Below are positions 8,366 to 63,670 of a DNA stretch of 64,000 nt, piece by piece. A program made the translations under genes and the position numbers. Each line of letters opens with the position of its first letter. Positions within the stretch are counted from its first letter, which is position 1. The DNA is taken from assembly GCA_963669155.1 (NCBI GenBank), contig OZ022595.1:4500642-4564641 (forward strand), in the 5' to 3' direction. The notes beneath the pieces are model-generated. The model did no database searches. It had not been told where the DNA came from and worked only from the letters and a program-made list of their open reading frames with translations. Origin of the DNA: Arbacia lixula. Lineage: Eukaryota > Echinodermata > Echinoidea > Arbacioida > Arbaciidae.

Positions 8366-8455
8366 TTAACCTTTATGTGTCACATAAACAGCTGCTCAAT
8401 GGGATTTGTGTGTATTTCTTGTGAAAGAGGGCGTGCATAGGACATAAATAGTTAA
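8366..8455 (+). mobile_element. TTAA-bounded short element (piggyBac-like MITE)
   Basis: It is bounded by TTAA at 8366 and 8452. The left end is TTAACCTTTATGTGTCA, followed by the family core GGGATTTGTGTGTATT; the right end is degenerate. Length 90 bp. TTAA target sites and CCCT-type ends are features of the piggyBac superfamily; applying that here is inference. Confidence 0.6.
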
Positions 8456-8689
8456 GGTAAGCCTTTAACATTGGTGTGTGTGCACTGCCAAAGTCTTCAA
8501 GCTCTGAGGTTTATGTGATATGCATGCACGACTTTGTTTTATATTTTGCAATTGGGGCTATGTGGACGTGCCTGCACGCGAGGGCCGATTGCATGCATTT
8601 AGATAAATAATGATTGATCTGAATATATCGCCTCACCTCTGCGTATCGATTACAGTTGAAATCAAACCACGAGGGGCGCACAAACTCAC

Positions 8690-8787
8690 CCCTGGGTGCA
8701 CCCTCCCGCCATTCTGGGGTCATCTTCCACCCCTCGTCAACGTCGAGTGAAAACATAGCGGCATCCAGCGCAGATTTAGCTTTTCTC
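8690..8787 (-). CDS. Candidate internal or first coding exon, unknown protein
   Basis: On the minus strand a pyrimidine-rich acceptor, CAGTTTTTCACCTCCAG, ends at 8788. The donor G|GTGAGTTTG begins at 8689. The 98 bp between are open in one frame and encode 32 residues ending DVDEGWKMTPEWREGAPR, with entry phase 2 and exit phase 1. Base composition is richer in GC and CpG than the flanks, and the peptide is charged and well mixed rather than low complexity. I do not recognise the family. Alternatively, an internal ATG (GCCGCTATGTT) could make this a first exon starting MFSLDVDEG. No phase-matched partner exon was found on this strand in the window. Both splice sites are good and the frame is clean, so a real exon is likelier than chance. 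Confidence 0.5.
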
Positions 8788-9608
8788 CTGGAGGTGAAAA
8801 ACTGAATTCATTGAGTAAAGTTTTCAATTTTGGTAATTGCATCATATGATGGAATATTATATGCATGTAAACTGGACAGTTATTGAGCGTTGAAATTGCT
8901 GATTGGGTACTTGGGCAATTCATGAACGATGTATGAGTTTATTTTTGTGCTTCCCTGCATACGACAAGCAGCACAGGCAATATTCATGCTGAAATACATA
9001 CTGCGGGTGTTTGCAGTTTTTAGGATGAATAACTAAAATATGACTTTCTGAGTTGTTGGCTAGTAAACATTTACAGTCATACAATGTACCAGCATGGAGT
9101 GTCTACTAGAAAGTTTCTCCCCCCCCCCACATTTCGTAATATTTGTTTTGTACAATTTTTGCTCAATCTAGCATATTGTGATGGAGAGAGAAAAGCAAAA
9201 TAAACAGAATCCATGTCCTTGTTCTAGTAATAGTGTGTAAGTGTGTAAGTTCACATATTAAGTGGGACTGCATCTTTGAAAACTATACTGGATCTAAATT
9301 GTCCACTCTGAGTTTTGTTTCTGGTATAAATTTCAAATTTGTGGTAATTGCCTCATTTAATGGATGTTGTACGTTGGATAAGAAATTGAGGTTTGAGGAA
9401 ACCACAGCGGATGGGAAAACAATTTGTGTGGGCTATTTAATATGTGTGTGGTATCGTGAAACATACACATTGATTAACACTGTGCATTATACCTCATGAG
9501 AGCATTACATTTTTCATGGGGGCTCTTTTGAATTATAATACTATGGGGACTCACTTTTTATAGTTTGGGGACTCTTTTTCCCTGAGCCCTGTGAATCACT
9601 CTCACTGG
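8788..9608. other. No gene seen
   Basis: AT-rich sequence with a C run at 9120-9129. Just before the element at 9617 lie several GGGGACTC-type phrases, perhaps an older repeat remnant. Confidence 0.35.
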
Positions 9609-9616
9609 GGTTCAAG

Positions 9617-10080
9617 CCCGGGGGGGGCACTCACATATATTGGTGGTACGGGGACGTGCCGCTTTGAAGACCCCCTTTTTGAGACCTCGATATCCGTTCT
9701 TTAGATCCTCTATTTCCTACGCATGGCGAAAGTTCCGCGAAAAGTTCCGCTCCTTAGCCTCCCCGCTGTGCCCCTCCCTCCGTTCCCCAGGTCCGCGGCT
9801 TGCGTGCAGCTTGCTACGCGTACGCTTCAACATCAACCCGGCCGCCCGACCCGCCGGCCGAGCGAGCTGCAAGAAAACCCTGACGTACACAACGCGTCGC
9901 ATGTGCAGCGAGGATCGTTCTGTAGACCCTGTTTTTCACAATGCCGGGCGGTATATTTTTAGTTCCTAAGACCCCACATTTTACGCGGATTTTACCCTTG
10001 TAGTCAGTTCCTTAGACCCCCATTTCAGGGTTTCGTGAGGCACACCCCCATCAAAATATAATTTGAGTGCCCCCCCCGGG
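9617..10080. mobile_element. 464 bp nonautonomous DNA transposon with 8 bp target duplication
   Basis: The perfect 17 bp terminal inverted repeat CCCGGGGGGGGCACTCA at 9617 pairs with TGAGTGCCCCCCCCGGG ending at 10080. The 8 bp GGTTCAAG is directly repeated on both sides (9609-9616 and 10081-10088). The interior is unusually GC- and CpG-rich for the window (9740-9900) and encodes no recognisable transposase. An 8 bp duplication is typical of hAT-type elements; the superfamily is inferred from that alone. Confidence 0.85.
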
Positions 10081-10229
10081 GGTTCAAGGGTAACACTTTT
10101 ACATATACTGAACATTCAGACAATAGTCAAAAGGAAAAACATTAATTGTCTGCATCTGAAGCCATTTAAAAATAGCTAACTTGTCCTTCCCCTTTCTCAC
10201 CAAACCTGACAAAGCAATGCTGTAAAGGA

Positions 10230-10740
10230 AGACGATCATCCAATTCCTAATGTGCTTAATCACTCTGCGGTGTAAACTGCAATATCTACCACAGAAGAAC
10301 AGCCTTCATCAGCTCAAAATGGTAACATAGCTAGCTAATTGCGTCTTCATGAGCACGATCTAGCAAAAAAGCTATTTATTTGGTGAAGAAATCTTCCCCC
10401 TAAATCTTGGGCTAGATGCCAAAATAGGTCTGTAATTTGCAATGAAGCATATTTTTTTGTGGACCGTCTTCATTACGCTTAAATCTAAACCGAGTTTGCG
10501 AGCTCTCTTTGTTCAATGATGTGGGGCGGGCATGGCTTTGCATTTCGCAATGGTAGCAGCCGCGGCCTTTCAACCCCACTGCTTGCTTCAGTGTGATGAA
10601 GACACAATCGTAACGTCGTGCTAATTTCTAGAATCACAAATTAGCCAGCTATTTCGTCAGCTTTGGGCTGATTGAGACGTAGCTCGTCTGGCGGCAAAGT
10701 TCACTCCTCCTCAAGTGGATTACCGCCTAAATCGTGACCT
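10230..10740. promoter_or_regulatory. Candidate conserved noncoding element
   Basis: This stretch is complex and repeat-free, with GC and CpG above its flanks. It holds homeodomain-like TAAT cores (GCTAGCTAATTGC), an imperfect palindrome TGCTAATTTCT...AAATTAGCCA near 10620, and GGCGGCAAAG/TTACCGCC ends near 10690. No open frame with splice sites fits. The regulatory role is inference from composition only. Confidence 0.3.
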
Positions 10741-11280
10741 TGGCCTGCTGTCTTTTCAACACTAAATTCTGAACTTACTATCAATTTCCTGGAGAATTTC
10801 CTCAAATTTTGAGCTTATAGCTTCTTCCGTTTTGTGGTCCTGCAGCTCAATGGTTTGTAAGTCTCCAAGGTCATGCAATGATTTGTAATCCATGTTTGTT
10901 CTGAGGGAGTCATTTCTTCTTTTGATCACCTCATGATTGAAAGTGTCTTTTGATTTTGTTACCAAAACATTTTAGTTTCCTTCTTTATTACAACACATCA
11001 ATTATTTTTCTTGTAGTTTGTGTGATAATGTGTTGCAATTGATGTTGCTGTGTGCTGTCTGACGTCAATATTACCCACAGGATGTGTCCTGTCTACAGCA
11101 TACTCACCCCAATCTTTACTGAGCCTACATGTATGCTGTTTTTTGCCACTCAGATACTTCGCAACACACGACTCCCACAAAACCTGCTATTCTGACAATA
11201 GACAACAGGCTATGAATAAACTTTGAATACGTTTTTAATATAGGACACAATGATATTAAGCCACACCCCTTTGGTTACTG
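10741..11280 (-). repeat. Dispersed repeat fragment with minus-strand coding remnants
   Basis: On the minus strand the 11270-11150 part (GGGGTGTGGCTTA, then AGTTTATTCATAGCCTG, then TTTTGTGGGAGTCGTGT) matches plus-strand 25740-25860. The unit is therefore a repeat. Downstream on the minus strand, two frames look protein-like. The first, 11180-10998, contains SGKKQHTCRLSKDWGEYA and has an embedded GTGAGT after its DWG codon. The second, 10965-10762, contains DLQTIELQDHKTEEAISSKF, is coiled-coil-like, and is followed by donor-like GTAAGTTC. They may be decayed exons of a transposon gene. No domain is recognised. Confidence 0.45.
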
Positions 11281-11289
11281 CAATTATGT

Positions 11290-11472
11290 ACTATGACTAT
11301 TTGTTATTGTATTTATCTTGTTTCTACGTATTATGACTATTTATGATTATATGTATCTTGTTTATATGTAGTGTGATATTTATTGTGCAGGGCATGCTGG
11401 TAGAGCACCTTTTTAAACTGAAAGGGCTATCCTGTTGAAAAAAAAACCCTGAATAAATACGTAAATAAATAA
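11290..11472 (+). mobile_element. Non-LTR retrotransposon-like 3' tail
   Basis: The sequence runs through TATTTATTGTGCAGGGCATG, TGGTAGAGCACC, an A run, CCCTGAATAAATACG and ends in an AAATA-type tail. This order is typical of 3' ends of LINE-like elements in invertebrate genomes. No reverse transcriptase coding is present, so it is a 5'-truncated copy if the assignment holds. Confidence 0.45.
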
Positions 11473-11511
11473 AAACTGCAGTTCCATGGCAGATTTTGAC
11501 ATACATGTATC

Positions 11512-11883
11512 TATACTGGACCAAGGCTCACAAAGTCAGTAAATCTTACCATGAGCAACAGGTTAATACATCTTTATATACACTACAGCTCAAAGGAATT
11601 GGCACAGGAAAAGGGAAAGGGAAGAAAGAGAAGGAGCCGCAGTTTTCAACCATGGTATATTTTGTCCAGTTCAGCATGAAACATGATGCATTAGCCTAAG
11701 TAGCATGGTGTTTCATGCTGAACTGGACCAAATATACCACGGTTTAAAACTGCGGCTCCTTCCCTTTCTTCCCTTTCCCTTTCCCTATGCCAATTCCTTT
11801 GAGCTGTAGTGTATATATACTGGACCAGGGCTCACAAAGCCAGTAAATCTGACCGTGACAATGGGTTCATAAATCTTTATATA
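11512..11883. repeat. 69 bp direct repeat split by a foldback insertion
   Basis: 11512-11580 and 11816-11883 are direct copies starting TATACTGGACCA and ending TCTTTATATA. With the intervening foldback and one TA removed, the copies become a head-to-tail dimer, so the foldback landed exactly at the junction of a tandem duplication. Confidence 0.8.
11581..11811. mobile_element. Foldback MITE, copy 1 (231 bp)
   Basis: The arms of about 110 bp are almost perfectly complementary. The left end CACTACAGCTCAAAGGAATT pairs with AATTCCTTTGAGCTGTAGTG at the right. Both arms carry a purine or pyrimidine block next to GGAGCCGCAG / CTGCGGCTCC. TA flanks both sides. TA duplications are typical of Tc1/mariner-type elements. 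A second copy lies at 46907-47143. Confidence 0.85.
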
Positions 11884-11884
11884 G

Positions 11885-11968
11885 TATGTGCATCATTGAT
11901 GTATTTTTGAACTAGTAATACACACAAAACCTATAGAGCAGCAGATTATCTGGTACACAAGAGGTTAA
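11885..11968 (-). mobile_element. TTAA-type short element, partial
   Basis: AATACACACAAAACCTATAG, then GCAGCAG, then GGTACACAAGAGGTTAA match the family core and terminus in reverse orientation. The far end is degenerate. Confidence 0.5.
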
Positions 11969-13456: not shown

Positions 13457-13494
<38 letters not shown>

Positions 13495-20856: not shown

Positions 20857-20936
20857 TTAACTCCTAATGTGCTATACGTCTATTGTTTTTACCAATAATG
20901 CATGTAAGAAGGAGCATCTTGCACATGAAGGGTTAA
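20857..20936. mobile_element. TTAA-bounded short element (80 bp)
   Basis: TTAACTCCTAATGTGC at the left pairs imperfectly with GCACATGAAGGGTTAA at the right. A clear example of terminal inverted repeats plus TTAA at both ends. Confidence 0.7.
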
Positions 20937-21123: not shown

Positions 21124-21199
21124 TTAACTCTCTCACTACAAAACTATGAGATGCCGGTGTGAATGATAGCATGATGTATTATGAGGCTGAGAGGCTTAA
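21124..21199. mobile_element. TTAA-bounded short element, second family
   Basis: TTAACTCTCTCACTACAAAA at the left; GAGGCTGAGAGGCTTAA at the right. 76 bp. Confidence 0.45.
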
Positions 21200-22370
21200 T
21201 GGTAGGAGAAACTCTCATATGAGATTATCCTTCATACCTAGTGAAGTGTAATGTATGTTACGGTTTGAGCAACTCATTATTTTGTGCAAGTGGAAAACTA
21301 TAGTAAAATGGCGAGGCATGATTTCCATTATTTTTGCCTGGGTGGTTTTCCATAAAGAATGTTCAGCTAGAGAAAAACATGAACACTCAATATCCCCAAA
21401 GCTTAAATACATCGATGGATTTCATATTGTACATTGAGAACATTTTTTACTGAGGTTGCAAAGGAATATAACATTCCATTTGTCAAACAAATTTCTGAAC
21501 TCTTGTTACAAATCATTGGTGCATTTTCCACCAATACTTAAATATCCACAAATTTGGCACGCGTGAATGCTTAAGACGGAGGGAAAGTCTTTGGGGCTGC
21601 ACTTGGAAAGTGCATTTCATCTTGAAAAAAGATGCCACAGTGATAGACAAATGACCATACCACTTAAATTTACAAAAAATTGAGTGCATCTAAAAAGATA
21701 TCATTACATTAAACTACTCCATTGTAATGGATGCAGTAAGCATTTATTATCGTCAGAAACTGAAGAGCTTAGTATTTTCTAAAAGCAGACCTTGGTTTCT
21801 TTCTGCAAACGAGTGTGATGCAGCACGTAAATGGCACTATATTATATTGACTCCCATATTAAGCCAACCACATATTAAAACAGTACTAACAGCACCATCA
21901 ATCCCGTCATATACATCAATAAAAATATGAATTTTTGATTTATGAAAAGCTCTCCAAACGACCAATGCTCTGTATCATTTCCCTAGACAATAGCATTTTT
22001 TTTAAAGGCTTCATTACAAAACCACCTGTAAGTGGCTATGATTTATAATTTGACCTCACAGCACAAATGATGATTAGAAGTTATTTTCCTGGATCCTTGA
22101 ACTGACTCGCCAAATTACATTTGGATAAAGGTTCATCCACCACCACTGCACTGCCAGTCAAAAGGAGATTTCCTCCCCTTTGCTAGTCTGTCTGCTGCTG
22201 TATCCTTGTCTGCTTCATGTGAAGATCCAGGAGGAGTGGGAAGAGGGTGGTGGTGGTGGAGGGGGTGGGTGGGGGGAAGGGGGATGGTGGAGGTTGACAT
22301 AGTAGGTGGTAACACTTACACCTTGGCCAATGAATATAATCTGATTTTATCACTTATACACCCCTCCATA
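21200..22370. other. No gene seen
   Basis: AT-rich. A G/T-rich patch lies at 22236-22300. Confidence 0.35.
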
Positions 22371-22458
22371 ATCCCTTGTATGCCAGATAAAATGCTTCTC
22401 TATGTGATTCATGTGTATCATTTAGGTAAAAAGTTGCATGTGGGACACAAAGTGTTAA
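22371..22458 (+). mobile_element. TTAA-type short element
   Basis: CCCTTGTATGCCAGATAAAA at the left, GTGGGACACAAAGTGTTAA at the right. The left TTAA has decayed to ATAA. Confidence 0.6.
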
Positions 22459-23111: not shown

Positions 23112-23203
23112 TTAACCCTTCGTGTGTCACCTGTGCCTGTTTTTCACAAGTAATGCACACAAATCCCATAAAGCAGCAGTTTATGTGGCACACAAAGGGT
23201 TTA
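23112..23203. mobile_element. TTAA-bounded short element (92 bp)
   Basis: TTAACCCTTCGTGTGTCAC at the left is mirrored by GTGGCACACAAAGGGTTTA at the right. The inner core (CACAAATCCCATAAAGCAGC) recurs across the window. This is the best copy for defining both ends. Confidence 0.75.
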
Positions 23204-24997
23204 TGGAGTTATAACTGTTACTAGCGAGCATGAACCAATTGTGTTTGTAAAGATAAATGAGATTAAAAGGGTGGCAGTGAAATGTAACAAAGAATAAATA
23301 TTGTTTGCTGTGAAAGAAACCACTGTTAGAACATGTTTGGATATTGTATACTGGTGTAGTGGAGACGATGGGTCAAGATATGAATACCTGTGGGAGGAAA
23401 GTTGCAACGAAAAGATGTAACTGACTTCTATGAGGGAAGATAAATTGTTACTACGATAAAGGAAAACCACTTTTTTGATATTGTTGACAAATCTAATTGC
23501 CCTGACTAGCTTTGCCCCCAATACCAAAACCTCTACCTTGGAACGCACAAAGAAATCGCTCCGTGCATCTGCAGTTATGGGGCTTCCCACTTTAAGCGAT
23601 GCGTAATAATGCGAAGGGCGAAGCAGAGCGAGAATCACGCTCTCCAGCGGACAGGTCTGACCGACCGGGGTGGCGATATGATGGGGTGTTGTGCTTTAAC
23701 TCTCTTAGTACCATACTACGAAAGCTGGTATCAATACCAACACAGTTTAGCACCTATGGGACTGAGGGGGTCAACGGGAGAGAAATGATCACATGATCAG
23801 ATTGGGTGTTATGTGGCCAGGACTGGGGGGCTAAGTTGCACAATGCACTGACAGTATTGTACCAAACCCACTTGCTAATCTGCTGGCCTGTTGACGTGGG
23901 GGTGCTGACACGTGCGCGCTATTGAATAGCCAGTGAGCATGCACGGCTATCTTTGTGAGCAATGCGTTTTCTCTCTGGTCAGTTTGCTTCCCCCGGGAGC
24001 TCTCTGCTTTAGTTACAAAGTGTATCCTTTCTCCTTCCTCTTCTTCTTTTCTCCTAAAAAAATGTGGCCAGTTGATCTTAACTCCTTCATTGTTAGATCA
24101 TGCAATTCTGCTCTTAATGAGTTGTGTATTACTAATGACATTGGTACTTTGAGAGTTAACTCATATGCCAGGCAAAGAAATATAGGCTTTATGTATCATG
24201 TTACTTCAATACTAGTTTAAATGAGAAACATTGTTCACAGAAAACAGTAAATGTAGCCTTCATAGATAGGTGGTGTCTGAAACAGCTTGCATGACCAAGT
24301 TGGAGTAAGAATTTTTGCTTGTGATTTTGCCCAAGCTACGTTATTCATAATACCAGGAGCAAGTATTTTTGTAATATTCGGTCTACCCCTAAGTTGAAAA
24401 AGGACCTCACAGATTCTGATATGGATGTTATCAGTGATCAGGGATATAGGAGGCATGAAGAAGTACACATGCTGTGATATTAAGTGGACTAATTCTAGTT
24501 CTTGCGAGCTATTCCTGCCACAATGCCTGCCCAACCGTTCTCAATTAATGACCGTTTTTGTTATGATTAAGCCCCATGACTACTCCCAGCCATTCTTCCT
24601 CCCTTAAATGGATGAATTTCATTTGTGTGATTTGCCCATTTTTCTCCTCCCTCACCAGAGAAGCTCACTCTCTTGGATTTGATTAATCACGTTAACAATG
24701 TCCTCCCTGTCCTGACCAATCATAGAGAAAGGAGAACTAGGGAGAGGGTTTATGGCCCCCGCTGCTGGCCCAGTGGCTAATTTTATAGGCAACTAAGAGG
24801 GGTGGAGATGCAATGGCCATTGCTAGCTGATTGTTGCTGGGAGACTGGGAGAAGAATACATGGAAGAGAAAGGAGAGAAGAAGGGATGGATGAGGGAGAT
24901 GTGTAGAGGGAGGAGGGGAGAGATGGGAAGATAGGAAGAAAGGAGAGTGGGAGTGCAGGAGACAGATAAGGGGCATCAGAGTAGGAGGGTAGGAGAG
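23204..24997. other. No supported gene; two TTAA-type elements
   Basis: Two short TTAA-bounded elements lie at 23696-23775 (TTAACTCTCTTAGTACCA to GGGGGTCAA) and 24078-24159 (TTAACTCCTTCATTG to GAGAGTTAA). CpG-bearing patches lie at 23560-23690 and 23890-23960, but no exon with both splice sites was found. Confidence 0.4.
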
Positions 24998-31130: not shown

Positions 31131-31571
31131 AGCCCCGTTCATATACCATATACCGCTATTATTACCGATGCACATCGGTAAGCAAGTTTCCAACGAGCCG
31201 CAAAAGCACCGTTCATATACACCCCCAAAAGCCGTAATGTTGCGGTGTTTTGGACAGCTGGACTCTCTCCAAACCAATGGTGACATGCTTCGCTCAGCCA
31301 TACGAGCGGTAGGATTAGCGACCAACAGGCCAGAGCGCAATGCTAAAGGCGCAATATTTACGCCTATTTTGCGGACGCAGTTTATAAGATTCGCTTACCG
31401 CGATATTGCGGTATTATTACTATGTCTCGATCCGCGAAAAAGCCGCAAAATAAGCGCAAAAAAGGAGGAAGCAAATACCGCGTTAATTGAGCGATTCCCG
31501 TTCATATACGCAGCTATCGGTAATGCATCGGCAAAATTTTTCGCGGATAGGCGGTGTATATGAACGGGGTT
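31131..31571 (+). mobile_element. CCCCGTTCATATAC element, copy 2 (441 bp)
   Basis: It starts AGCCCCGTTCATATACC and ends GGTGTATATGAACGGGGTT. Two further copies of CCGTTCATATAC lie inside, at about 31210 and 31498, so the ends are echoed internally. The interior is rich in CG and GCAAAA/TTTTGC words and has no transposase. It inserted in or next to GA/GACA repeat DNA, so a target duplication cannot be read. Confidence 0.9.
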
Positions 31572-32976: not shown

Positions 32977-34300
32977 TTGAGCAACAAATTATAAGGTAAA
33001 GGTATCACAGACAAGGGATTAATCCTTCATTTCAGTTTCACGGTGGCTTATATATCAAATGTTCATTAGGGTAATTAAGTTTGAAGTAGGATGGGACAGG
33101 AGAGTGTAAGGGGAGGTGAGGGATAGAATGTGTTGTGGATGGTAGCTGAGAGTGAAAAAAAAAAGTCGCAGAGGGGCTCAGGCTGCTTTAGCCTCCCCAA
33201 TGTGAAAAAGTGCCCCCACAAATAACAAAAGTGCCCCTGTAAAAGGAAAAACCCTCATAGGGCAGTATGCAAAACATATTTCAGACTATTTGTTATATAT
33301 CAATCTTCAAAAGTAGTCTTTACAATACACTGATTTTTTTCCTCTGCTGGCTGATATTGTAGGCTTATTCAACACATCATTTCTTTTCAACCCACAGCAT
33401 ACCACAGGTGCGTGACCACACCTGAAATATACAGAAATCCCCTGCAGTGTCCTATCTAGGACTGTAGGGGTTAATCCTGACCAGCCTCATTTGTTCATGT
33501 ATCACTGCGCAATGCAAGTGATCCATCATGACATGAGCCAAAATGTCACCGTCACGACAAGCTCGATGTGTCGATACGTGGACTGCAGGTCCCGCTTTTG
33601 AAATAGGGTAACTAAACAGAACAAGACCTCAGGCCGTTTAATCCTGCTGTATTTTTCTCCTACGTATTTGATTTTAGGATATGTGTACTCTGTCCATGTA
33701 TTCACTGTAAACTAAATGTTATGCATGCAACATTGTATATTTATAGAAGCACCTACTGAGTTAAAGGGATATATGTGGTTATGACACTTCTATGAAAAGA
33801 GATATAATGGACTTGTACATTATTTCAGTACTTGAAATTTCGTTCTAGCTAGCTAGTGAAATAGCTGCATGACCCTTATAGTAAAAATATATATATTTTG
33901 TTGTATGAGATGACGGAAAATAAATTGAAAAATATGAGGTCACCATGACTAAAACATGAAGTGAAGCATTAATATGTATTCAGCAGTCAATTGAAAATTG
34001 AAGGGGACAAACAAATAAAATTGGAGGAAACATCAGAATTTGAGAAAACATCAGCAGATCCCCTTAGAAATATAAAAAAAGGAAATTGTCGTGCAATCTT
34101 GAAGTGACCTGGTCAGGTTTTATGGACAGTTTCCATGGTCGTGAATAACTTATCAAGTGCAGGCAAGAAAAGGGAGTTTGCTTTGTAGCGTTTGTGTGAG
34201 GTCCTGTGTACATGGACAAACTACCTCCGAGTTCCTGTGGTGTGCTTTTTAATCATGCAGCTGGTCACGACTCTCCTGGGTTGGGGGGGAGGAAGGAGGA
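32977..34300. other. No supported gene
   Basis: A more complex, CpG-bearing part at 33400-33620 has acceptor-like CTTTTCAACCCACAG at 33399, but all frames close early. The rest is AT-rich. Confidence 0.35.
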
Positions 34301-37310: not shown

Positions 37311-38015
37311 GGTACTCAATGATGATATATCATTCTGGAGTTGAATCATTACCTATGGTGTAGTAAGGGGAGAGTTTTGAACTTACAATCACCCAATCAT
37401 AAAGTTGAATTCTTACGCTGATTAGGTGAAAGGAGAGCTGTGAACTCACAATATTCTGATCATTCAATTAATGCTCAGGGATCCACAAGTGTCCGAGCGT
37501 CGTTCGCCAAGTACTTTAACTTGATGCACGTGTGAAAGGGGATGACTAGAGCACCAAGTGCTATGATGCACATGTGAAAGGGGATTATTGTAGATTGCCA
37601 AGTACTACAATTGATGCATGTGTGAAAGGGGATGAATTAGGTCAGTGTAGATTGCCAAGTGCTATATTTGATGCACATGTGAAAGGGGGTTATTGTACAT
37701 TGCCAAATACTACATTTAATGCATGTATGAAAGGGGATGATTTAGGTCATTGTTCTGGTACTTCATTGCTGCCATATCATTTGGGGGTTAAATCATGGTC
37801 TATAAACTTGTGAAAAAAGAGCTGAAAGCTCAATGCCTCGATCACAGGGTTGAATGATTGCGCTGATCTTGCAAAGGGAGAGCTATTTGAAATTACAATG
37901 CCCCAAATATGAATTCATATTCAGGGACCCAGAACTCTCCAAGTAGTTGCTCGCTTAGTACTATACTTGATGCATGTGTGAGAGGGGATGATTGTAGATA
38001 CATGTTGGTACTCAT
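37311..38015. repeat. Higher-order tandem array, 446 bp period with 42-57 bp subunits
   Basis: GGTACTCAATG at 37311 and GGTACTTCATTG at 37757, and CTCAGGGATCC at 37474 and TTCAGGGACCC at 37920, are both 446 bp apart. Inside the first repeat, TGATGCACATGTGAAAGGGG or variants recur at 37522, 37564, 37612, 37669 and 37718, and again at 37969. The repeat encodes a chance Cys/Lys-rich frame. Confidence 0.85.
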
Positions 38016-38198: not shown

Positions 38199-38274
38199 TT
38201 AACTCTTTGCTTTCTTCAAAAGTAATACACTCAAATTCCATAAAGCGCTATTTGGTCTGGCGCTCAAAGAGTTC
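38199..38274. mobile_element. TTAA-type short element
   Basis: TTAACTCTTTGC at the left, family core AATACACTCAAATTCCATAA, and CAAAGAGTTCA at the right with a decayed TTAA. Confidence 0.55.
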
Positions 38275-38908
38275 ATGAGAGTATACTTCCCTAATCTGAC
38301 AAAAGGAAGCAACTAACAAAAGAGACTTTTCTTGTAAATGAGTAAAATGTGTCTGTTTCTTGCATTGGCATCAGTGCAACACCACATCATGTTAGATTGA
38401 GTATCTCGCAGCAAGATAAACATATATCTTGTCCAGATTTTGCCTGTATGTAGGGAATTCTGGATTTAATCTAAAAATGCCAATAACCCAGATTTAAGTG
38501 ATTTGTCACTTGCTTCCGTTTGTCAGAGTAGGGCACTATACTTCAAGAAGGGGCTGTCTCATTTTGTTGATAGATAATCAATGATATTACAGTCTTTGTC
38601 GTCAAATGTCATGGAGGTCAGGCCATCACCCTGTCAAAGTCATTTTGACAATGTTCCTCATGAAGACATCTTTTAAACAATTAATAACATACAATAGAAT
38701 TAGAACAAAGTGGGGGTAGAGAATGGTTCATTGAAAATACTAAAATAAGCCATGATATATATAAGATATATATACGAAACATACTTTTTCACATCTCAGC
38801 CCCTTACACAACAACTGTGCATTGCTTTACCAAGTTTTTAGTGCGATATAGTTGCCCCTGAAATAAGAAACATACCTCAAAAAAGTATCATAACCTTTTT
38901 CTTTAGCT
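38275..38908. other. No gene seen
   Basis: AT-rich, single-copy-looking. Confidence 0.35.
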
Positions 38909-40235: not shown

Positions 40236-40327
40236 TTCAACTCTTTATGTGCTATTTGTGTACATTTTTTCACCAGCAATAGTACAAATCCCATAGAGGA
40301 GCATTCTGGCTGATGCATGGAGGTTAA
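40236..40327. mobile_element. TTAA-type short element
   Basis: TCAACTCTTTATGTGC at the left; core ACAAATCCCATAGAGGAGC; right end GCATGGAGGTTAA. Confidence 0.6.
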
Positions 40328-40542: not shown

Positions 40543-41000
40543 AGCCCCGTTCATATACCATATACCGCTATTATTACCGATGCACATCGGTAAGCAAGTT
40601 TCCAGCGATCAGCAAAAGCACCGTTCATATACACCTCAAAAGCCGTAATGTTGCAGTGTTTTGGACAGCTGGACTTTCTCCAAACCGATGAAGACATGTT
40701 CCGCTCAGCCATACGAGTGGTAGGATTAGCGACCCACATGCCAGAGCGCGATGCAAAAGGCGCAACATTTACGCCTATTTTGCTGACGCAGTTTAAAAGA
40801 TTCACTAACCGCAATATTGCGGTATTATTACTAGGTCTCGATCCGCGAAAAAGTCGCAAAATAAGCGCAAAAAAGGAGGAAGCAAATACCACATTATTTG
40901 AGCGATTCCCGTTCATATACGTAGCTATCGTAATTCATCAGCAAAATTGCCGCAAATGTTGCGCCATTTTCGCGGATAGGTGGTGTATATGAACGGGGTT
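40543..41000 (+). mobile_element. CCCCGTTCATATAC element, copy 3 (458 bp)
   Basis: AGCCCCGTTCATATACC at the left; TGTATATGAACGGGGTT at the right. It is close to copy 2 throughout, with small indels near the right end (extra GCCGCAAATGTTGCGCC). Internal CCGTTCATATAC copies lie at about 40621 and 40909. Confidence 0.9.
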
Positions 41001-45800: not shown

Positions 45801-46906
45801 GTATGACCTGATAGTTTCACATTATGCTATTTCACCTCTTTCTTTGTGTTCATTATTTTCTTTCTATTTTATTATCAGTGTTTATTTGTTCATGATATTG
45901 TCGAGTTGACATCAGCGCGATGATTGATTTGGTTTTATTTGGTAAACTTTACCACCAGCGACAATAATTGAACAATAGATCAATATATTACATTGACAGC
46001 GGGCATTCATTACTTGCAAAGCCCCCAGGGAAGATGTCAGGGGGCAGAGAAAGGGGGAGGTACAGAGGAGAAAGAAGAAGAAGTGGGGAAAGGTGAATCA
46101 AATTGCGAGAATGAAAAAGGAATGAAAGAAACATGAGAGCAAAACTTAATTCCATTCCTTTACAGCTTTAATACTGTAAGCCAATTCTAACAATTATATG
46201 TGCGAGAATAGAAAGGTCTTTTGATTATGTCTACATCATATTTTGTTGGTATGTAAGATTTTGTTTTGATGGAGTCATTCAAAATGATATTCCTAAGAAA
46301 TATTATCTTGTTGCTTGTTGCATTAAAGAGCAATTCGAACTGACCCTTGAGTTGAATGATTATTGTACACATGGACGTTTTTGAAAGGATAATTTTACCC
46401 CTGCTGAGTGTAGATATGGAAATCCTTTAATGAAATATGCATACTTGTGTGTGTTTGTAGTAAGACATCTGAAAAGACACATTTTGCACTTAAAATGCGA
46501 TGTCTCCAGCTGAACCTAGCGGATGAGTTGCGTGGAGTTTATACCGTATGCTTAACAGGAAATGGGAGGGGCAGGAATGGACGGAGCACAAAATTGCAAG
46601 TGCAGGGTAAGTGCCCTTGTTTGAATTATTGAAAGCCAAAATTGACCTACCCAATTAGCTGAGAAACGGCCATAAAATTCTAGGGACAAAGCCGTGGAGA
46701 AATCGCTGAAGACAGATAAATGGTCAGCATGCATTATGGGTAATTGAGAGTCAAGGTAAAGTATGCGTGAGCAGCACAGCAACGCCATTTATATGTTTTC
46801 CTGTTGTTGTTTTATGCTTTTCCCCTCCTCCTCCTGCTTTTCCTCCACCCCAAGCCAAACTAGAGAGCGTAACAGCTAGCTTAGCCTAGGTTCTTGCTCT
46901 CACGTA
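45801..46906. other. No supported gene
   Basis: A stretch at 46447-46607 ends in a strong donor-like GG|GTAAGTG, but its acceptor is weak and its frame does not follow from the 45702 exon. Confidence 0.35.
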
Positions 46907-47143
46907 CACTCCAGTTCGAAGGATTTGGCATAGGGAAGGGGAAAGGGAAGAAAGGGAAGGAGCCGCAGTTTTAAACTGTGGTATATTTTGTTCAGTTCAG
47001 CATGAAGCATAAAGCTTTTTAGGCTAAAGCATCGTGTTTCATGCTGAACTGGACAAAATATACTGCGCTTTAAAACTGCGGCTCCTTCCCTTCCTTCCCT
47101 TTCCCTTTCCCTTTTGCTATGCCAATTCCTTTGAGTTGTAGTG
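46907..47143. mobile_element. Foldback MITE, copy 2 (237 bp)
   Basis: It is homologous to 11581-11811 along its whole length: CACTCCAGTTCGAAGGATTT at the left, CAATTCCTTTGAGTTGTAGTG less its first base at the right, the same GGAGCCGCAG arms, and TA on both sides (46905-46906, 47144-47145). It sits next to, perhaps inside, a CTAGCCTAGG family element: AGCCTAGGTTCTTG lies before it and the rest follows. Confidence 0.85.
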
Positions 47144-47161
47144 TAGAGAGCGAGTAGGGAA

Positions 47162-47284: not shown

Positions 47285-47595
47285 GTAACCCTTTGTGTGC
47301 CAGAAATATGCTCCTCTATGGGAATTGTGTGTATTGATGATTACATGCATGTAATCTACAAATGGCACATCAACCCCTACATTACCAGGCCTTGAAAACC
47401 CGATTGGCTTTCTACACATTTTAATGCCAATGGTAATGAGAGAGTAAACCCTTGCATTACCAGGCCTTGGAAACCCCATTTGCTTTCTACACATTTTAGC
47501 ACCAATGGTAATGAGGGGGTCAAGGGGGTTAACCCTTTGTGGGTTGGGCGAACTGCTGTACCATTTAATGTGTGAGTATATCACTTGCATCAAAT
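47285..47595. mobile_element. Cluster of four TTAA-type short elements
   Basis: Two first-family copies (47285-47350, GTAACCCTTTGTGTGCCAG; 47529-47590, TTAACCCTTTGTGGG) flank two direct copies, 76 bp apart, of another unit (47376 and 47452). The unit starts CCCTTGCATTACCAGGCCTTG, less its last base in one copy, and ends CCAATGGTAATGAG. That unit also occurs reversed at 63592-63670. Confidence 0.7.
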
Positions 47596-47599
47596 GAAT

Positions 47600-49822: not shown

Positions 49823-51149
49823 GTATGTAAAGTGTATGCAGTGACTGCTGTAGAGTGGGTGCTATGTGTGGCGTGGAGGTCGGATCGAAGGACTCTCAAC
49901 GTAAATGGGTTTCTTCTTCTTCTTCATGTCCAAAGACGACCGATCGTCTCTTCTCCTTCCCCTGCCATTTATCCAGCATGTTCTCCCTGTCTGTGCTGTG
50001 TGTGGGTATAGGCGTATTGAAGCCCGGATTAAGCCATGTGAGGCCCATTTGGCTTTGCAGGCGATTCTCGGCTATTTGCATTAGGACGAGAAACATATAT
50101 GACCTAGTAATGCGATTGATACTAGCAATACTGCACATGTGTCATTTACAGTCCTTGATTGAGTGATATATTCGGTCTTCCCTTACCTTCCCTGTGCTGT
50201 AGTAATTGCTACTTGAGATTTATGTACACAACAGGAGAAAAAAATAGCACACATGGCACATCAAGAATTAAACAAAGTAGCCCCAACAGTGATCATGCAC
50301 TGCTTTCCCTAGGTAACCTCTGTGTGAATAATATATTTTTACCATGCATGTTTCAAGAATGTCATGGACATTAACACAACATACTGGGGAGAAATGCGGC
50401 AATGAAGCATAGGTTCATAAAGAAGAATAGTCAGACGATGCATGTGAGATGGATTGAGTACATTAATGTCCACATAATTATTTCATTAATGTATACACAT
50501 GATAAGATTGATGTACACATGATTATTTCATGAATATACACATTACATAACATTAACTCCTGACCTGCCGCTGTCTTGGGCACAGAGTGGTTTTACCCCC
50601 CAGCAAGTTAAGGGTTAATGTCCATGGTGTTTCATGGACAAGAACAACACAGAACAGAGTAGAATTGAACATTGGTGGAGAGGTTTTCCTTGAGCCGAGG
50701 AGTGAAATACACATGTAGACAGATGGACCTTGAGCTGAAAGCATGATCCACATTGTGTTACAGTTTCATTGTGAACTGTGTTATCAGTTGATATGCTACA
50801 TGCACAATACACATCACTTAGTACTCAGCCTTGAACCAACTCCAGAATTGCTGCAATCAAACAACATAATTTCTATTATTAGAATGTTTCGATGTACTTC
50901 TTACTTGATTAATGATACGCATTGAATTAGAATTTATATTTTGAAAATTAATCAGAGCACTTTGCAAATATTGTATTATCTTCACAGGAAAGTAAAGATC
51001 ACATATGAATTAATCTTTGTTGTTGTGACATATTTTCATGTAGTGTGGCTTGATGCATTTTTTGAGGACATGTTTGGCATTTAGGCCAAAAAGGTATATA
51101 TTTCGTCCAATCATTTTCAATGATTTACTTTTTAAAGACTCATCTTTAT
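49823..51149. other. No gene seen
   Basis: A small duplication at 50460-50545 (ACATAATTATTTCATTAATG and ACATGATTATTTCATGAATA). Otherwise AT-rich. Confidence 0.35.
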
Positions 51150-51725
51150 TTCACAGCATTTGGCCTCTGATCAGACTAGATCTGATATCACATCAGACTA
51201 AATCTCTGCACTTTCCAACTTCTGCCAGCTCCTTAACTAGGCAAGATGATGTAGCTAATTTCTCCTCAGAAACATTTTGTTCATCTAAGACAAGATCTCT
51301 AAACTGTCTATTCCCTATCAACCTCCTTAGCTGGGCAGTATGGTATGTAAGTCTGACCAAATTATCTTCTCAGACTAGAACTTTGTACTTTCCATACCTC
51401 ATCATCATCAAAGCTGGATGGTATTTGAAATTCTGGCAGAATAATTTCTCCTGAAGAACATGTAGGTCTGCTATTAACTCTTTCTGCGCAATGTGTGTTT
51501 TGTTGACAATTAATACACTCAAATCCCATCAAGCATCATTGTGTGTGGCTCAAAAAGGGTTGAAGACAAGATCTCGCTACTTTCTACCCCCCACCAAAGC
51601 TAGATGATATGATTTAGAATTCCGAGCAAATAATTGCTCCTCAGACTAGATCTCTGTACTTTTCATCCTCCATCACCTCCTCGGCTGGGTGATATGATTT
51701 GCCATTCAGGCTAAGCTGTACATGT
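51150..51725. repeat. Degenerate tandem repeat, about 85 bp unit, split by a TTAA element
   Basis: CAGACTAGATCTCTGTACTT or variants recur near 51171, 51199, 51284, 51368, 51562 and 51640, followed by GCTGGGTGATATGATTTG-like and ATAATTTCTCCT phrases. A first-family TTAA element at 51474-51563 (TTAACTCTTTCTGCGC to CTCAAAAAGGGTTGA) interrupts the array. Confidence 0.7.
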
Positions 51726-55620: not shown

Positions 55621-56144
55621 TTAACTCTTTATCTGCCAGATGAGAATGTTGTGTGCTGCATGATTGCATAATTTGCTTTTTTTCATAGAGGTATGTGTGT
55701 AAAAACGTGTTTCTAATGATGTGTTAAATGCACAGTGAAAAGGATGCATTTCTTTTTTTTAGAAAATGGACATTTTCAAAAAAATATCGTACACAACATA
55801 TGGGAGAGCACCTCGCACATGACGTCACAAAATGAACAGTTTAAAAGATCATAAACTTTCTTATCCTTTGATGGATTTTCATGAGACTTACACTTATGTA
55901 TTTCTTTCATGTGTCTGCTTTTATTGAAACCAACTCAATTTCAGGATGAACTATCCTTTCAACTCCTGTGTTAGGCAGCATGCTGCCTTATTGGATGTGA
56001 GTGTGTTTAACAATTGCTCCCATGTGACACTCAAAGGGTGCATAATAACCTACAAAATCCATTTAACCCGTTCCATGCCAAACAAGTGGTTTCTATGACT
56101 ATTTGCATGTATGACATGAATGAATGTGGTATTGAAAGAGTTAA
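55621..56144. other. No gene; TTAA-type elements
   Basis: TTAACTCTTTATCTGCCAGA at 55621 looks like a truncated first-family end. 56063-56144 (TTAACCCGTTCCATGCC to TGAAAGAGTTAA) is a complete 82 bp TTAA-bounded element of a different sequence. Confidence 0.5.
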
Positions 56145-58450: not shown

Positions 58451-58451
58451 T

Positions 58452-58745
58452 GGGGCGTTCACACGTGACGATGCCCTGCCACAAAGAACGTTTAATTGAA
58501 ATGTAATATAGATTCATGGTCTCAGTGGCTGGCTGTAGAGTACCTCTACGCTGGCATGTTTACATGTTGCAATGCCTCATGATGTACATTTCATTAAAAC
58601 GTAATATTGGTTTACGGTCTCATTGGCTAGCTGTATTGACTCCATGCTGATGTGTTCACATGCAGCAATGTCTCTTTGTGAAGTGTGTTCAATTAAAACA
58701 TAAAACGAAATATTGGTGCTTCGTCTCAGTGGCTGTCTCTAGGTT
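58452..58745. repeat. Three-copy tandem repeat, 95-101 bp
   Basis: Units at 58452, 58553 and 58648 contain GTTCACATGCAGCAATG-like starts, TTCAATTAAAACGTAATAT, and end GTCTCAGTGGCTGGCTGTA or variants. Confidence 0.8.
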
Positions 58746-59788
58746 AACTAGTTCTGCCTCACTGTTGCAGTTTTGAACATAATCATACACACAAATCTAA
58801 TTGATATTTATTTTATCTGGCATAGAATGACTTAAATCCTTCTGGAGATACAAAATGCAGACAATTATTTCTAGAAGCAACTGCAAAGTAAAATCCAAAG
58901 CAGAAGAGCTGTCTATACATATATCTACTACAGGGATCACCTAAACATGAAAAATAATCCCTGCACGTTTTTATACAAATGCTGTAAGGATTTTGTTGTA
59001 ATGGACTAAGACACTTCCCTGGAGAAGTAGGTACTTGATAAAACTATATTATGGCTATTTTGATACCAAAAAGAGGATTGTTTGAAGAGGGAAATTTTGC
59101 TGAAAGGGACTCTCTCGGTTCATTGGCATGTCACATTGTTTTAGGCTAGTTGTAGAAAACAAACATCTGTAGCTTGTTTGAAGCTCTAATGGTTCTAAGA
59201 ACATGTGTGTTTCTTCTACTCTCCTCTCTTTTATATGAAGACTGAATCTTTCCTTACCTTAGACAAGCAATATGCCTATTTTATTCTCAAATTATATGTG
59301 CACGCATGCCTTTCCAATTAGTACTCCTCAGTCTCTTGTCAGTCTCTTGTAAATTATATCAAACTATGAACTATATCAAAGTTTAATGACCAAAATAATT
59401 ATTTATTTCACTTTCCCAAGTTAGTTTGACTGCTTGATTTTGAGCTTACCATTATCTTGATTGCTTTAGGTTATCATAAGTGTGTTTTTTCTTGTTATTC
59501 GAGTAGGGTCTGTGGTATAGACTACTAGAGTATGACGTCTTCTTGACCATGGTTCACCTTTGGTTGCAGAGAGGGGAGTCCATCCCCCCTCAATCCAGCG
59601 GCACGTGCCCCCTTACACCTTTATACCTCCCCCCTTAGCTCCTTTAGAATCATTTCCTTTCAGGAGAACTTACTTTTTAACTCAGAAATCATTGCAGATT
59701 TGGGCAATCTTATATGTTCTGTTCTCTTTTGCCTTTCTATCAGGTTTCCTCTGATTATGCAAACACCTCATTTAGTGTAGTCCCTGCA
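58746..59788. other. No supported gene
   Basis: An acceptor-like CACCTTTGGTTGCAG at 59571 opens a Pro-rich frame in phase 1 (RGVHPPSIQRHVPPYTF), but no good donor closes it and the sequence is C-run-rich. Not called. Confidence 0.3.
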
Positions 59789-59927
59789 TTAACCCATAGT
59801 GTGTCAGAACATTCCAAAACTCTATGGGATTTGTGTATACAGTGGGTGTGCCAAAATGCTTCAGTAACGAAAATTGAGTTAAAGATTTTATTTTGTTAGG
59901 CAGATTGTCTGGCATGTAAAAGGTTAA
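59789..59927. mobile_element. Two overlapping or nested TTAA-type short elements
   Basis: TTAACCCATAGTGTGTCAG at the left, core TATGGGATTTGTGTATAC, an internal GAGTTAA at 59878, then ATTGTCTGGCATGTAAAAGG before TTAA at 59924. Confidence 0.6.
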
Positions 59928-60355: not shown

Positions 60356-60570
60356 CTAGCCTGACGTCCAGGCTATTGGGCATTTAGAAACCAAACTATT
60401 CACTTTAAAACGGGTCAGGCTGCAGTAGGTTTATCATTCTTAATTTTCTTCTCTGACTCACATCAACGTTGAGAAAAAAGGAGAATGATACCGTGACTAG
60501 TCTTATAAGTTCCAGACTCTATATTTCAGGTTGGATTATAAATGTCCAACAGCCTTAAAGCTAGGCTGGG
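60356..60570. mobile_element. 215 bp inverted-repeat element with 6 bp duplication
   Basis: The ends CTAGCCTGACGTCCAGGCTA and TTAAAGCTAGGCTGGG belong to an imperfect inverted repeat of about 35 bp that also pairs TTGGGCATTTA with TAAATGTCCAA. TAGTGT is directly repeated at 60350-60355 and 60571-60576. The interior has no coding. Confidence 0.75.
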
Positions 60571-61238
60571 TAGTGTTAGTATGCACCCCCCTGTTGCCGT
60601 TATTCAAGTTGACTTAATGTTTTGGTTGAATCACCTTGTTGATATCACTGGCCTTCATTGAGTGGGCACAAATAGTGTTAAATGTAAAGACCATAAAGAA
60701 TTATACAATTTATGCTTAGTGGGTGACTGTTTGTTATGATATAAGGTCATGTTTTAGAACTGTATTAATAATTAGAGCCTATGTTGTCATTTCATAATAA
60801 CATAGTTCTAACTTGTGAAGATTTATTTTGATATTTTAAATTTGAATATGGCTCCTGGTTATGACATAACTTCTGTAAACAAAAATTCATAATTTGGAAT
60901 ATTAGGCTGGACTGTGAATTGGGGTGATTTTGTCATCATTACACAGGTTATTTTCTTTGCTCCAACTGAAGCAAAATATGTTATTGTATACATTGAACTT
61001 GATGTTACATATGCATCTCTACATACAATATCCATGTTGGCAAAACAACTGCCAAAATAGAACTATCAGAAAACATATTGTTGAAAAGAAATTTGGGATC
61101 TTAGGGCATGGAGTGTGAACGAACTGATGTTTAGATTTCAATTTGGCTGGGGCCGGGATTTAAAGCCAAACTTGTCTTGATGCATTCCTGTGCGCCCTAG
61201 AATAAAAAAGAGGGGAAAATGGTGTTTTTTATTTGCAG
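60571..61238. other. AT-rich, no gene seen
   Basis: Ends in a strong pyrimidine tract, GGTGTTTTTTATTTGCAG, before 61239. Confidence 0.35.
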
Positions 61239-61406
61239 AGGCGCAGACCTAGGGGATGTCTGCATATGTGTGATGGTTTCCTCTGCCTTGCAATGGTGTT
61301 TGACCCAGGATTCCTTAAAGGCAATGGGCTGTTTTCTTAATATTTCTGAAGACTTGCGCATCTGGAAGTATCAAAGTGCATGTAGATACTGTAGTACAGT
61401 TTATCG
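61239..61406 (+). CDS. Weak candidate exon, phase 2-2
   Basis: A strong acceptor (TGTTTTTTATTTGCAG ending at 61238) opens a 55-codon frame including VSSALQWCLTQDSLKAMGCF, entered in phase 2. A moderate donor TCG|GTAGAAC at 61407 would leave in phase 2, and the frame otherwise stops at once (TAG 61408-61410). It would follow in frame from the 45702 exon (AG|A, Arg). A high Cys/Met/Trp content and no motif make chance plausible. No family recognised. Confidence 0.27.
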
Positions 61407-63591
61407 GTAGAACTGACTGTGTAAAGTGGAGTTCTTATAAAAATGTTCCCCAAAATGTTTCTTTTACATCAAGATTGTAACTATCCATGTTATTCTTTAT
61501 TTTTTAAGATGAATCCCTGGAATGCATTGCTAAAGTAATAATTAAATCAACGTAATTTTATAATATGGGTTCAAGTATGATGATAAGAGAGGTACAATGT
61601 ACATGTATGATGATCATTGTATTGTTCCACATGTAGATGTAGAATATTATACGTATGGTGCATTAATAAGCTTTCTTGAGTTAGAATTTGCGTTTCTATA
61701 TATGCTTTGAAATGCATTTCATTACGTGATCCTGTGTTGCCGCGTTTTTCAACGCTCAGATTCATGATTCTGGCTCATTCATTTTTCCAAACCGTTCTGC
61801 TTTTCAAAACAGTGAGGTTGATCACACAACAAAATGTGGTTGCAATCACCAACTGCAAACATTAGCCTGAATCGGGTTTGAAAACGCTGATTATTACCAG
61901 AAAAGAGTTGATAACACATCCCAAAATGAAGCATTTAATGATGATAAGCCATGGCTTGACAGATGCCGTATGAATTCCTTTAAGTCAGGGCAATGTTTTG
62001 TTTTAATTCCGATGGTTTAGCACTTGAGGTGGTACAGGTGTTCCATGGAAATAGTCTTGAAGAGAAATGTCTCGGAATGTTATCTTTTCACTCAGTTAAC
62101 TCACACCAAATCATGTTTGAATAATGTATTTGTTATTACAAGTTCTTTCAATCTTTGAAGAAGGTCTTCTGCATACATAATGAATACATTTATGTTATCA
62201 GTAATGCAGTGTATTATATTGTTAGACCTTAGTATGGCTGATATGTATCTGATGATAATTTGTAGCACCTCAGAAATCTTGGATTTCGTATTAATCCTCG
62301 TGATAAGATTCAAATCTGTAAAAAACAGTTTATTCATGATGTACTACTTTAAAAATTGCTTCTTAAAGTGATTTGTGATTGTTGCTCAAAAAATGTCATA
62401 ACTTATCAGAGCTTTTATAAGAAGACATGATAAATATATACCAAATGTATTTTACCAGGCAATTGCAAAGGGAATTTATGTATAAACTTGGTCAAATACA
62501 AATACAAAATTGTAGCTTTGGGGCATTTGAGGGCGACCTGTTCCAGCAGTTATTGGGGTTTTGGATTGAATTGCGTAAATAGTTTGATTTTTCTTGAACC
62601 CTCCATTGATCTCATTCATTTGTTGTGCTGCCTTTACAGCAGAGTTAGCTCAGCACCCCCTGCATGGTGTGTGAACCTAAACCCTGACCTGAGATGCAAG
62701 AATTAAAGACAGGGTGTCACTTTTGCAAAAGTCATGAAACTCGGAAGGAATCAGCAGTATACCCTAACAATAACGTGTTTGAAGTCTCACAGTGATACAT
62801 GTAGCTTCACAAACATTTTCAGTAAAAGGGAAAAACTATCCTTGTTTACATTTGAAATGCATTGAGCATAGTCAACATTCATAATCGTATTGTTCCTGTC
62901 AGTGCACTGTGGTGCTAACCATAGTGCGCAGCGGTCTATGGTCTCTAGGCTTTAGGTTTCAGATGACCAGCCTAAAATCTCCTCAAATTCATTCGATTGC
63001 TATAATTTTGCTTAAAGTCAGTTTCCAGTTCTATTATTGAGAAGGAAGTTCTGATGCAGTATCTTCTTCCATTTTGTATTTTGTATTTTTTGACCTGAAA
63101 AAAAAAATGTATTTCTGACCTGCAAAAGGGACACCCTGTCTTTAATCTTGAAGAAGTGCATATTGAATAAACACTCATCTCTTTTGTATCTTTGCATGAC
63201 CTGCCCCCACCACCCCCCCCCCCCCTACACACACACACCTACAGCGGAGAGGAGAGTTTGTATTGACTATGTAAATGCAATTCAAGCTTCAGCTTGTTAT
63301 ATGTATGTCATTCATTTTTTTTTACACTAATGTTCTAGAATATCTACATACAAATTGACAAATGTTTCTACTATTGTATTTTCATTTAATATATTGGAAG
63401 TCAAGCAAAAAATAATCAATCAAATTGTGAGCTCAGTGCTGGCTGTCCCATCAATCAGATTATGTGCACTCTACAAGATTGGCTTCATGAAGTCAACAAC
63501 AAGACATGGGGGCTCAATGTGATGAACATACAGGATTAATGAGTCTCTAAAGGACTAACGTGTCCCTCTGTTAACCTTGATTCTCACTGGG
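61407..63591. other. No gene seen; short inverted pair and C run
   Basis: GACAGGGTGTCACTTTTGCA at 62709 is mirrored by TGCAAAAGGGACACCCTGTC at 63121, with AATTAAAGAC/GTCTTTAATC outside. These are ends of an inverted-repeat element of about 450 bp (62699-63150). A C run followed by CA lies at 63212-63238. Confidence 0.45.
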
Positions 63592-63670
63592 TTAACCCTC
63601 TCATTACTAATGACATGACAATGTGTAGTAAATCAGTGGGAAATTCAAGGCTTGGTACTGTAAGGGTTAA
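63592..63670 (-). mobile_element. TTAA-bounded short element, same unit as 47376/47452
   Basis: TTAACCCTCTCATTACTAAT at the left and GTACTGTAAGGGTTAA at the right. Reversed, it reads like the 47.4 kb units (CAAGCCTTGAA, CTACACATTGTCATG). Confidence 0.65.

Follow-up and report, generated by a model that had tools for sequence, protein, structure and literature searches.

Very short TTAA-bounded mini-elements of Arbacia lixula, very probably non-coding members of the piggyBac superfamily

Miniature inverted-repeat transposable elements (MITEs) of the piggyBac superfamily, to which human MER75 and MER85 belong, are mostly several hundred bp long. As a group they duplicate a TTAA target, carry CCYT-type ends, are non-coding and are presumed to move in trans, and the same holds for the elements described here, namely, the TTAA-bounded mini-elements of a 64-kb stretch (hereafter, the window) of the 607-Mb, 590-contig genome of the echinoderm Arbacia lixula. 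Daphnia mPok is a further MITE of this superfamily (PMC4912750). A closer parallel is offered by the CMITEs of the corals Acropora millepora and A. palmata, which, in the passages of PMC2872659 that concern us, are uniformly about 100 bp long, duplicate TTAA, have CCCTTT-type ends of 13-14 bp, occur as full-size units in tandem arrays, have a known element-free allele, and reside together with piggyBac elements, one of them with like ends. Their ends vary and their interior is conserved, as in the main family of the window, family A. However, the A. lixula units, of 91 and 79-80 bp including both TTAAs, are shorter than the 96-108 bp of coral CMITEs (PMC2872659, Table 1); their number appears far higher, roughly tens of thousands for family A against about 1600 coral CMITEs (PMC2872659); and the host belongs to a different phylum.

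We read the mini-elements of the window as non-coding, very short piggyBac-superfamily MITEs, with a probability of about 0.93, and infer that they are mobilised in trans by a partner transposase. The kind of element is already known, and the families make a CMITE-like design that is ordinary in kind and well supported; what sets them apart is their shortness, narrow length and abundance, together with chains in which neighbouring units have one TTAA in common. The same superfamily had been suggested in a preliminary description of the window, made from its letters, and the suggestion is now supported by the TTAA duplication, CCCT-type termini, a clean empty site, and co-resident piggyBac transposases with open frames and like termini. 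Among the papers listed by literature searches, no report of these families in an echinoderm was found, as judged by titles or abstract openings; the relevant part of PMC10813416 describes six echinoderm genomes mined for piggyBac with MITEs excluded.

Evidence that the family is real comes, first, from the window itself. Pairs of TTAACYCT and AGRGTTAA ends, with at most one mismatch per end, form a peak at 70-99 bp, where 15 pairs were found and about 1.65 would be expected, as estimated from 20 dinucleotide shuffles; a single pair has no mismatch, with none in the shuffles, whereas lone ends with one mismatch barely exceed chance (147 versus 126.6). Second, profile models at E<0.01 gave 20 family-A and seven family-B/C matches, which occupy 26 distinct places, and none with either set in the reversed window. 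These models (A3, Bn and others) were trained in part on window copies, and the search was therefore repeated with models built from copies elsewhere. Model A2 comprises 30 genome copies, recruited through a consensus first drawn from window copies and including one window copy (23112), while model Bi comprises 31 family-B units, none from the window. A2 yielded 15 window matches at E<0.01, Bi recovered sites 47376, 47452 and 63592, and one family-C copy from another contig recovered site 23696, with no match in any reversed control. Thus, 14 of the 18 sites listed in the preliminary description are matched by models from elsewhere, ten of them by A2 (8366, 11885, 22371, 23112, 38199, 40236, 47285, 47529, 51474 and 59789). 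As for the other four, 20857 and 24078 are weak, and 21124 and 56063 are recovered exclusively by a model trained on them. The description's dense family of mini-elements therefore stands, and eight additional copies extend it (5820, 7727, 7806, 7894, 33389, 50183, 55964 and 58744). Of the outcomes named there as refuting, two, no excess over shuffled sequence and no common termini on alignment, did not occur. Of the TTAACYC/GRGTTAA ends given for the listed sites, the pair at 63592 is exact, and a clean left TTAACYC is absent at 11885 and 22371.

Third, the same ends recur throughout the genome, where TTAACCCTTTGTG occurs 2463 times (1204 + 1259) and its letters in reverse 18 times (12 + 6). 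Family A is 91 bp long, with core CTCTATGGGATTTGTGTGTATTACTTGTG. A 92-base query found at least 40 genome matches, 40 of 2125 candidates having been scored, and 30 fetched copies align to a 91-bp consensus with 88-95% identity, termini in common and unrelated flanks; 20 of them have TTAA on both sides, eight on one side and two on neither. The consensus reads CCCTTTGTGTGCCA at both ends, which agree as inverted ends at 14 of 14 bases. Family B, of 79 bp, ends in CCCTTACATTACCA and CTCTCTCATTACCA, which agree at 11 of 14 bases, and has at least 123 genome matches (40 of 1090 candidates scored). Family C, of 80 bp, has at least 57 (40 of 310 candidates scored). The B copies of the window are also recovered with one C copy as query (E 2.9e-5, 0.006 and 0.013), so that B and C probably branched from a common interior. 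The two look alike by eye, and their kinship is drawn from full-length matches, the B and C interiors taken by themselves giving no significant local alignment (p 0.32). One of six interior comparisons, that of A with C, had a p value of 0.005. Hence, where three or more unrelated interiors had been proposed, more than one is indeed present, but most copies have the A core, and two interior groups, A (91 bp) and B/C (79-80 bp), appear to fit the sequences better.

The narrow length first noted in the window also holds genome-wide. A search for the fixed ends TTAACCCTTTGTGT...AAAGGGTTAA at a total of 69-99 bp returned 87 matches, which represent 70 places; 24 places measure exactly 91 bp, and 49 lie within 88-94 bp. 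Outside this peak there were three places at 38-68 bp and two at 100-130 bp, of which one contains a long A/T run. All reversed-pattern controls gave 0, and the exact-end pattern samples the best-kept copies only. Shorter ends, TTAACCCTTT...AAAGGGTTAA, at 80-110 bp gave 131 places (control 0), and most of the 50 listed have the family-A core by eye, with C3:21266700 (family C) and C2:37941234 as exceptions. Lengths pooled from 91 places become sparse at 84 and 96 bp, but a ten-base periodicity is not established by them, since few lengths lie off the main mode and indels blur the rest.

Family A contains copies of different ages. Five young copies among the 30 aligned (L043, L046, L051, L052 and L066) show pairwise differences at 1-3 of 91 bases, so some movement has been recent, whereas copies met by chance are older, with 64-92% identity to the consensus in 22 that had not been chosen. 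Among 38 A copies not picked by consensus or pattern, the core (positions 31-58) matches the consensus at 77.8% and the ends at 65.7% (p 4e-4, although the profile may favour the core); per copy, the core is above the ends in 31, equal in four and below in three. None of 38 copies met by chance keeps an exact 13-base end, of which the genome carries about 2450, which argues that family A is many times that number, and tens of thousands of copies is our rough estimate. At E<1e-3 the density of family A is 17 per 64 kb in the window (one per 3.8 kb) and 14 per 81 kb in the flanks of other A loci (one per 5.8 kb), and lower elsewhere, namely, one per 22 kb at pattern loci and three per 146 kb at piggyBac loci, mainly transposon interior; L039, which overlaps the window, was left out of the pooled-locus counts.

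Evidence of insertion comes from locus L055, where a fold-back repeat of the host contains a family-A copy (positions 1502-1590). L004 carries the homologous stretch without the copy and reads a single TTAA there, and the other arm of the L055 fold-back repeat also matches across the empty joint. A query made of the joined flanks spans the joint at 41 places with 89-94% identity, judged by the span of the match and not base by base, among at least 43 matches (40 of 701 candidates scored). The L055 insertion is a precise TTAA insertion; its filled site now reads TTAG and TTAT, one base having since changed in either target copy. This was the one clear case among 68 copies compared with the fetched DNA; weaker joint-spanning matches, of 68-73%, were obtained for L051, L063 and window copy 51474, and the remaining ones are the copies' own neighbours or chain units.

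Transposases that could act on such elements reside in the same genome. The piggyBac DDE domain (PF13843) has at least 120 genome matches, 116 of 178 candidates having been scored, and 29 of the 30 listed first are free of internal stops. They include multi-copy families with open frames and copies up to 99.8% alike; seven families were read to both ends (Table 1). Several carry TTAACCC- or TTAACTC-type ends, namely, PB1 (TTAACCCTTTCCTGCCC), PB5 (TTAACTCTTAGTGTGCCA), PB6 (TTAACTCTTTATACG) and PB8 (TTAACTCTTTCCCAACTG), and the left end of PB5 comes closest to the family-A end, with 12 of 14 bases by eye. The subterminal DNA of PB4 resembles the A core in consistent orientation, its right side the left half of the core and its left side the right half (p 0.001; 0.004 over 14 tests). 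PB2 and PB3 (L013-L019, L021-L023), which are 4.0-kb families with unequal ends and copies up to 99.8% identical, have likely been active recently.

The termini also bear on an alternative that we consider very improbable, in which these are Kolobok-superfamily MITEs akin to the T2-MITEs of Xenopus. According to the relevant part of PMC6004289, the latter are abundant, long-lived, present as many short copies, and likewise duplicate TTAA. However, Kolobok elements are described there with terminal RR, and T2 with an AGGRR motif, whereas the ends here are CCC/CTC, of CCCTTT type; they fit the CC[C/T]T piggyBac signature given in PMC2872659 and resemble the ends of the co-resident piggyBac families.

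A few results weigh against membership in the piggyBac superfamily or against a particular partner within it. First, the two aligned family-A copies that have no intact TTAA include the one in L055, and the empty sites are related places within the same genome, not alleles of other individuals. Second, a longer autonomous element with identical termini, as looked for since the preliminary description, was not found: none of the seven piggyBac families, nor one candidate end near L030, has the exact A or B ends, a comparison outside of which most of the at least 120 transposase matches fall, the ends at L020, L025 and L031 being not resolved. This weakens the claim of a named partner, not that of superfamily membership. 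Third, the terminal bases of PB4 (CCACTTGACTGC) differ from those of family A; its split test was devised after the match had been seen, which makes the p value optimistic, and an earlier undirected test gave p 0.012 as the best of 26, not significant after correction. Fourth, among 15 end sequences of 200 bp the A3 profile reached no better than E 0.024 (PB4, left) and 0.056 (PB5, left), and the B profile E 1.1, while against the piggyBac loci neither the A nor the B profile gave anything below E 0.1.

Part of the mini-elements occur in head-to-tail chains. Of the 40 places occupied by the 123 family-B matches, 30 hold two or more, a share that is biased upward because these are the best 40 of 1090 candidates. 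Exactly four bases, one TTAA, overlap at 63 of 83 family-B joints, and none of the 30 chains is of mixed orientation. In the fetched loci, neighbouring pairs have the same orientation in all of 28 B-B, five A-A and three A-B cases, the sign of A-B pairs being conventional. For 17 of 41 units the nearest neighbour lies in their own locus, against a mean of 4.0 and a maximum of 12 in 300 label shuffles, and identity is 0.84 within loci and 0.80 between them, the window counting as one locus. Family C is chained at three places. The longest family-B chain, of 13 matches, is at G000:C8:11591537-11592489, and at L086:1724-1850 a family-B chain continues into family-A units over a common TTAA, in a single orientation. 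Repeated insertion into flanking TTAAs was considered for the family-B chains and rejected, as it would have mixed the orientations. Uniform orientation would instead be explained by tandem duplication, and for coral CMITE arrays PMC2872659, in the part relevant here, proposes replication slippage.

The prevalence of B chains, their four-base joints, their single orientation and the partly local relatedness of their units could also be expected of minisatellite or satellite monomers with a transposon-like look, spread by tandem amplification and recombination. To this we assign only a very small chance: the fetched family-A copies are mostly single and dispersed, one with its precise TTAA empty site; the chained share of family B is inflated by the sampling just mentioned; and, judged by eye, the boundaries of the six fetched family-B chains coincide or nearly coincide with unit ends, L085 and L087 having clean outer TTAAs on either side and some other chains decayed ones. 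Conserved small-RNA hairpins of pre-miRNA type, an idea invited by the 80-90 bp size, the pairing ends and the hairpins into which the A and B consensus sequences fold through them, are next to negligible as an explanation, given no Rfam family at threshold in the window, old A copies less conserved at the ends than in the middle, opposite to a conserved stem, and the transposon traits of dispersal in many copies, a duplicated TTAA target and an empty site.

If the mini-elements are piggyBac-superfamily MITEs, as we favour, their movement may be pictured as follows. The substrate would span about 71-87 bp between two TTAA duplications; its inverted ends are 14 bp long, and it leaves no space for a coding sequence. 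A piggyBac transposase from an autonomous co-resident element would bind both ends, placed nearly back to back, the left end joined to the right, cut the element out at its TTAAs and insert it at another TTAA. Recent bursts from few source copies would give the near-identical subfamilies, and some copies, family B foremost, would multiply locally by tandem duplication into head-to-tail chains with one TTAA between units.

Two known systems suggest that such short substrates may be workable. First, the looper piggyBac ends sufficient for activity, LE35 and RE63, add up to 98 bp, close to the size of the elements here (PMC7351741, in the part concerned). Second, PMC9942856 describes, in its relevant passages, piggyBac-family enzymes of the ciliates Blepharisma and Paramecium that cut short internal eliminated sequences of about 65-115 bp, with lengths roughly one helical turn (about 10 bp) apart. 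The ciliate sequences differ, however, in that they are eliminated during development by domesticated enzymes, are mostly TA-bound and are non-repetitive, whereas the elements here are repeated, mobile and TTAA-bounded. Taken together, short sufficient ends and ciliate cutting make it physically plausible that a transposase could act on an element of 83-87 bp, and the narrow size would find a natural explanation in a geometric limit. It is tempting to go further and to speculate that each element is a minimal piggyBac, two fused ends whose combined length the synaptic complex fixes through its geometry, such that A, B/C and coral CMITEs converge on about 75-100 bp, with TTAA-sharing chains as a regular second mode of multiplication. 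We hold this extension to be possible but unlikely.

Table 1. Mini-elements of the window (positions counted from its first letter) and piggyBac families of the same genome.
Feature	Position or length	Strand or ends	Evidence
Family A copy, diverged	5820..5908	-	A3 E 3.1e-9; A2 E 8e-4
Family A, unit 1 of three-unit head-to-tail chain	7727..7809	-	A3 E 7.8e-10; repeat D13
Family A, chain unit 2, TTAA common with both neighbours	7806..7897	-	end pairs, repeat search, profile
Family A, chain unit 3	7894..7986	-	end pairs, profile; A2 E 3.8e-7
Family A copy	8366..8455	+	A2 E 1.7e-16
Family A copy, one decayed end	11885..11968	-	A2 E 2.9e-13
Probable family A copy, weak	20857..20936	-	A3 E 8.1e-4; absent from A2 matches
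Possible B/C-group copy	21124..21199	+	solely model trained on it
Family A copy	22369..22458	+	A2 E 1.9e-16
Family A copy, 94% to typed consensus	23112..23203	-	A2 match; itself in A2 training set
Family C copy	23696..23774	+	single C copy from another contig, E 8.7e-7
Probable copy, A-like core, weak	24078..24159	+	A3 E 0.0043; Bn trained on it
Family A copy, diverged	33389..33474	-	A3 E 9.1e-8; A2 E 3.9e-4
Family A copy, shortened	38199..38275	-	A2 E 1.4e-9
Family A copy	40237..40327	-	A2 E 2.7e-8
Family A copy heading mixed chain	47285..47374	+	A2 E 2.3e-10
Family B unit, same mixed chain (47285 onward)	47370..47448	+	Bi E 1.8e-22
Family B unit, same mixed chain (47285 onward)	47445..47523	+	Bi E 1.6e-19
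Partial family A copy	47529..47596	+	A2 E 0.0089
Family A copy, diverged	50183..50271	+	A3 E 8.5e-8; A2 E 2.5e-4
Family A copy	51474..51563	-	A2 E 6e-13
Family A copy, diverged	55964..56039	+	A3 E 1e-6; A2 E 0.0014
Possible copy with TTAA ends	56063..56144	+	solely model trained on it; end pair in shuffle test
Family A copy, diverged	58744..58835	-	A3 E 6e-9; A2 E 0.013
Family A copy	59789..59882	+	A2 E 2.6e-4
Family B copy, clean TTAACCCT ends	63592..63670	-	Bi E 6.8e-18; exact end pair
PB1	3.59 kb	TTAACCCTTTCCTGCCC/TTAACCCTTTCCCGCCC	where copies stop matching
PB2	4.0 kb	TTAACCCTCTCTTG/TTAACTGGCACAG	where copies stop matching
PB3	4.0 kb	TTAACCCTATTCC/TTAACCTTCTTGC	where copies stop matching
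PB4	3.29 kb	TTAACCACTTGACTGC at both ends	where copies stop matching
PB5	5.2 kb	TTAACTCTTAGTGTGCCA/TTAACTCTTAGCCTGCCC	left from two loci; right by terminal-repeat matching alone
PB6	4.97 kb	TTAACTCTTTATACG/TTAACTCTTTGTGCG	terminal-repeat matching alone
PB8	4.47 kb	TTAACTCTTTCCC/TTAACTCTCTCCC	terminal-repeat matching alone

Other repeats and an open frame were observed in the window. A longer dispersed repeat, which is not a mini-element, is present as two copies, 92-95% identical, at 31131-31519 and 40543-40930; a fold-back repeat, self-matching in inverted orientation, lies at 11575-11817 and 46893-47154, with a family-A copy near both; and a local repeat family made up of 46- and 85-bp units (D12, D14) occupies 37500-37991. 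An open frame of 490 amino acids at 2273-3745, forward strand, matches DUF7869 (E 3.2e-7) and is possibly part of another transposon. Separately, locus L088 (contig C590) is a mitochondrial segment, in which rRNA, nad4L and cox2, named by eye, adjoin COX1 in an order that would suit a sea urchin or a sea cucumber. COX1 has 12 in-frame TGA codons; both of its AAA codons align with bovine Asn, and its nine ATA codons with six Ile, two Leu, one Val and no Met, as read by eye. The mitochondrial tRNA-Lys has the anticodon CTT. This segment fits the echinoderm mitochondrial code (table 9), which is common also to some flatworms.

With regard to the biology of the superfamily, these families suggest that the odd CMITE design is not confined to corals but is found again, in more copies, in another animal phylum, and their many tandem chains provide material for studying the passage from a dispersed transposon to a satellite-like array. 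Were the length lock true, the elements would in addition be an experiment of nature on how short a DNA a piggyBac transposase can still synapse, cut and insert, with a bearing on transpososome structure and on compact gene-delivery vectors.

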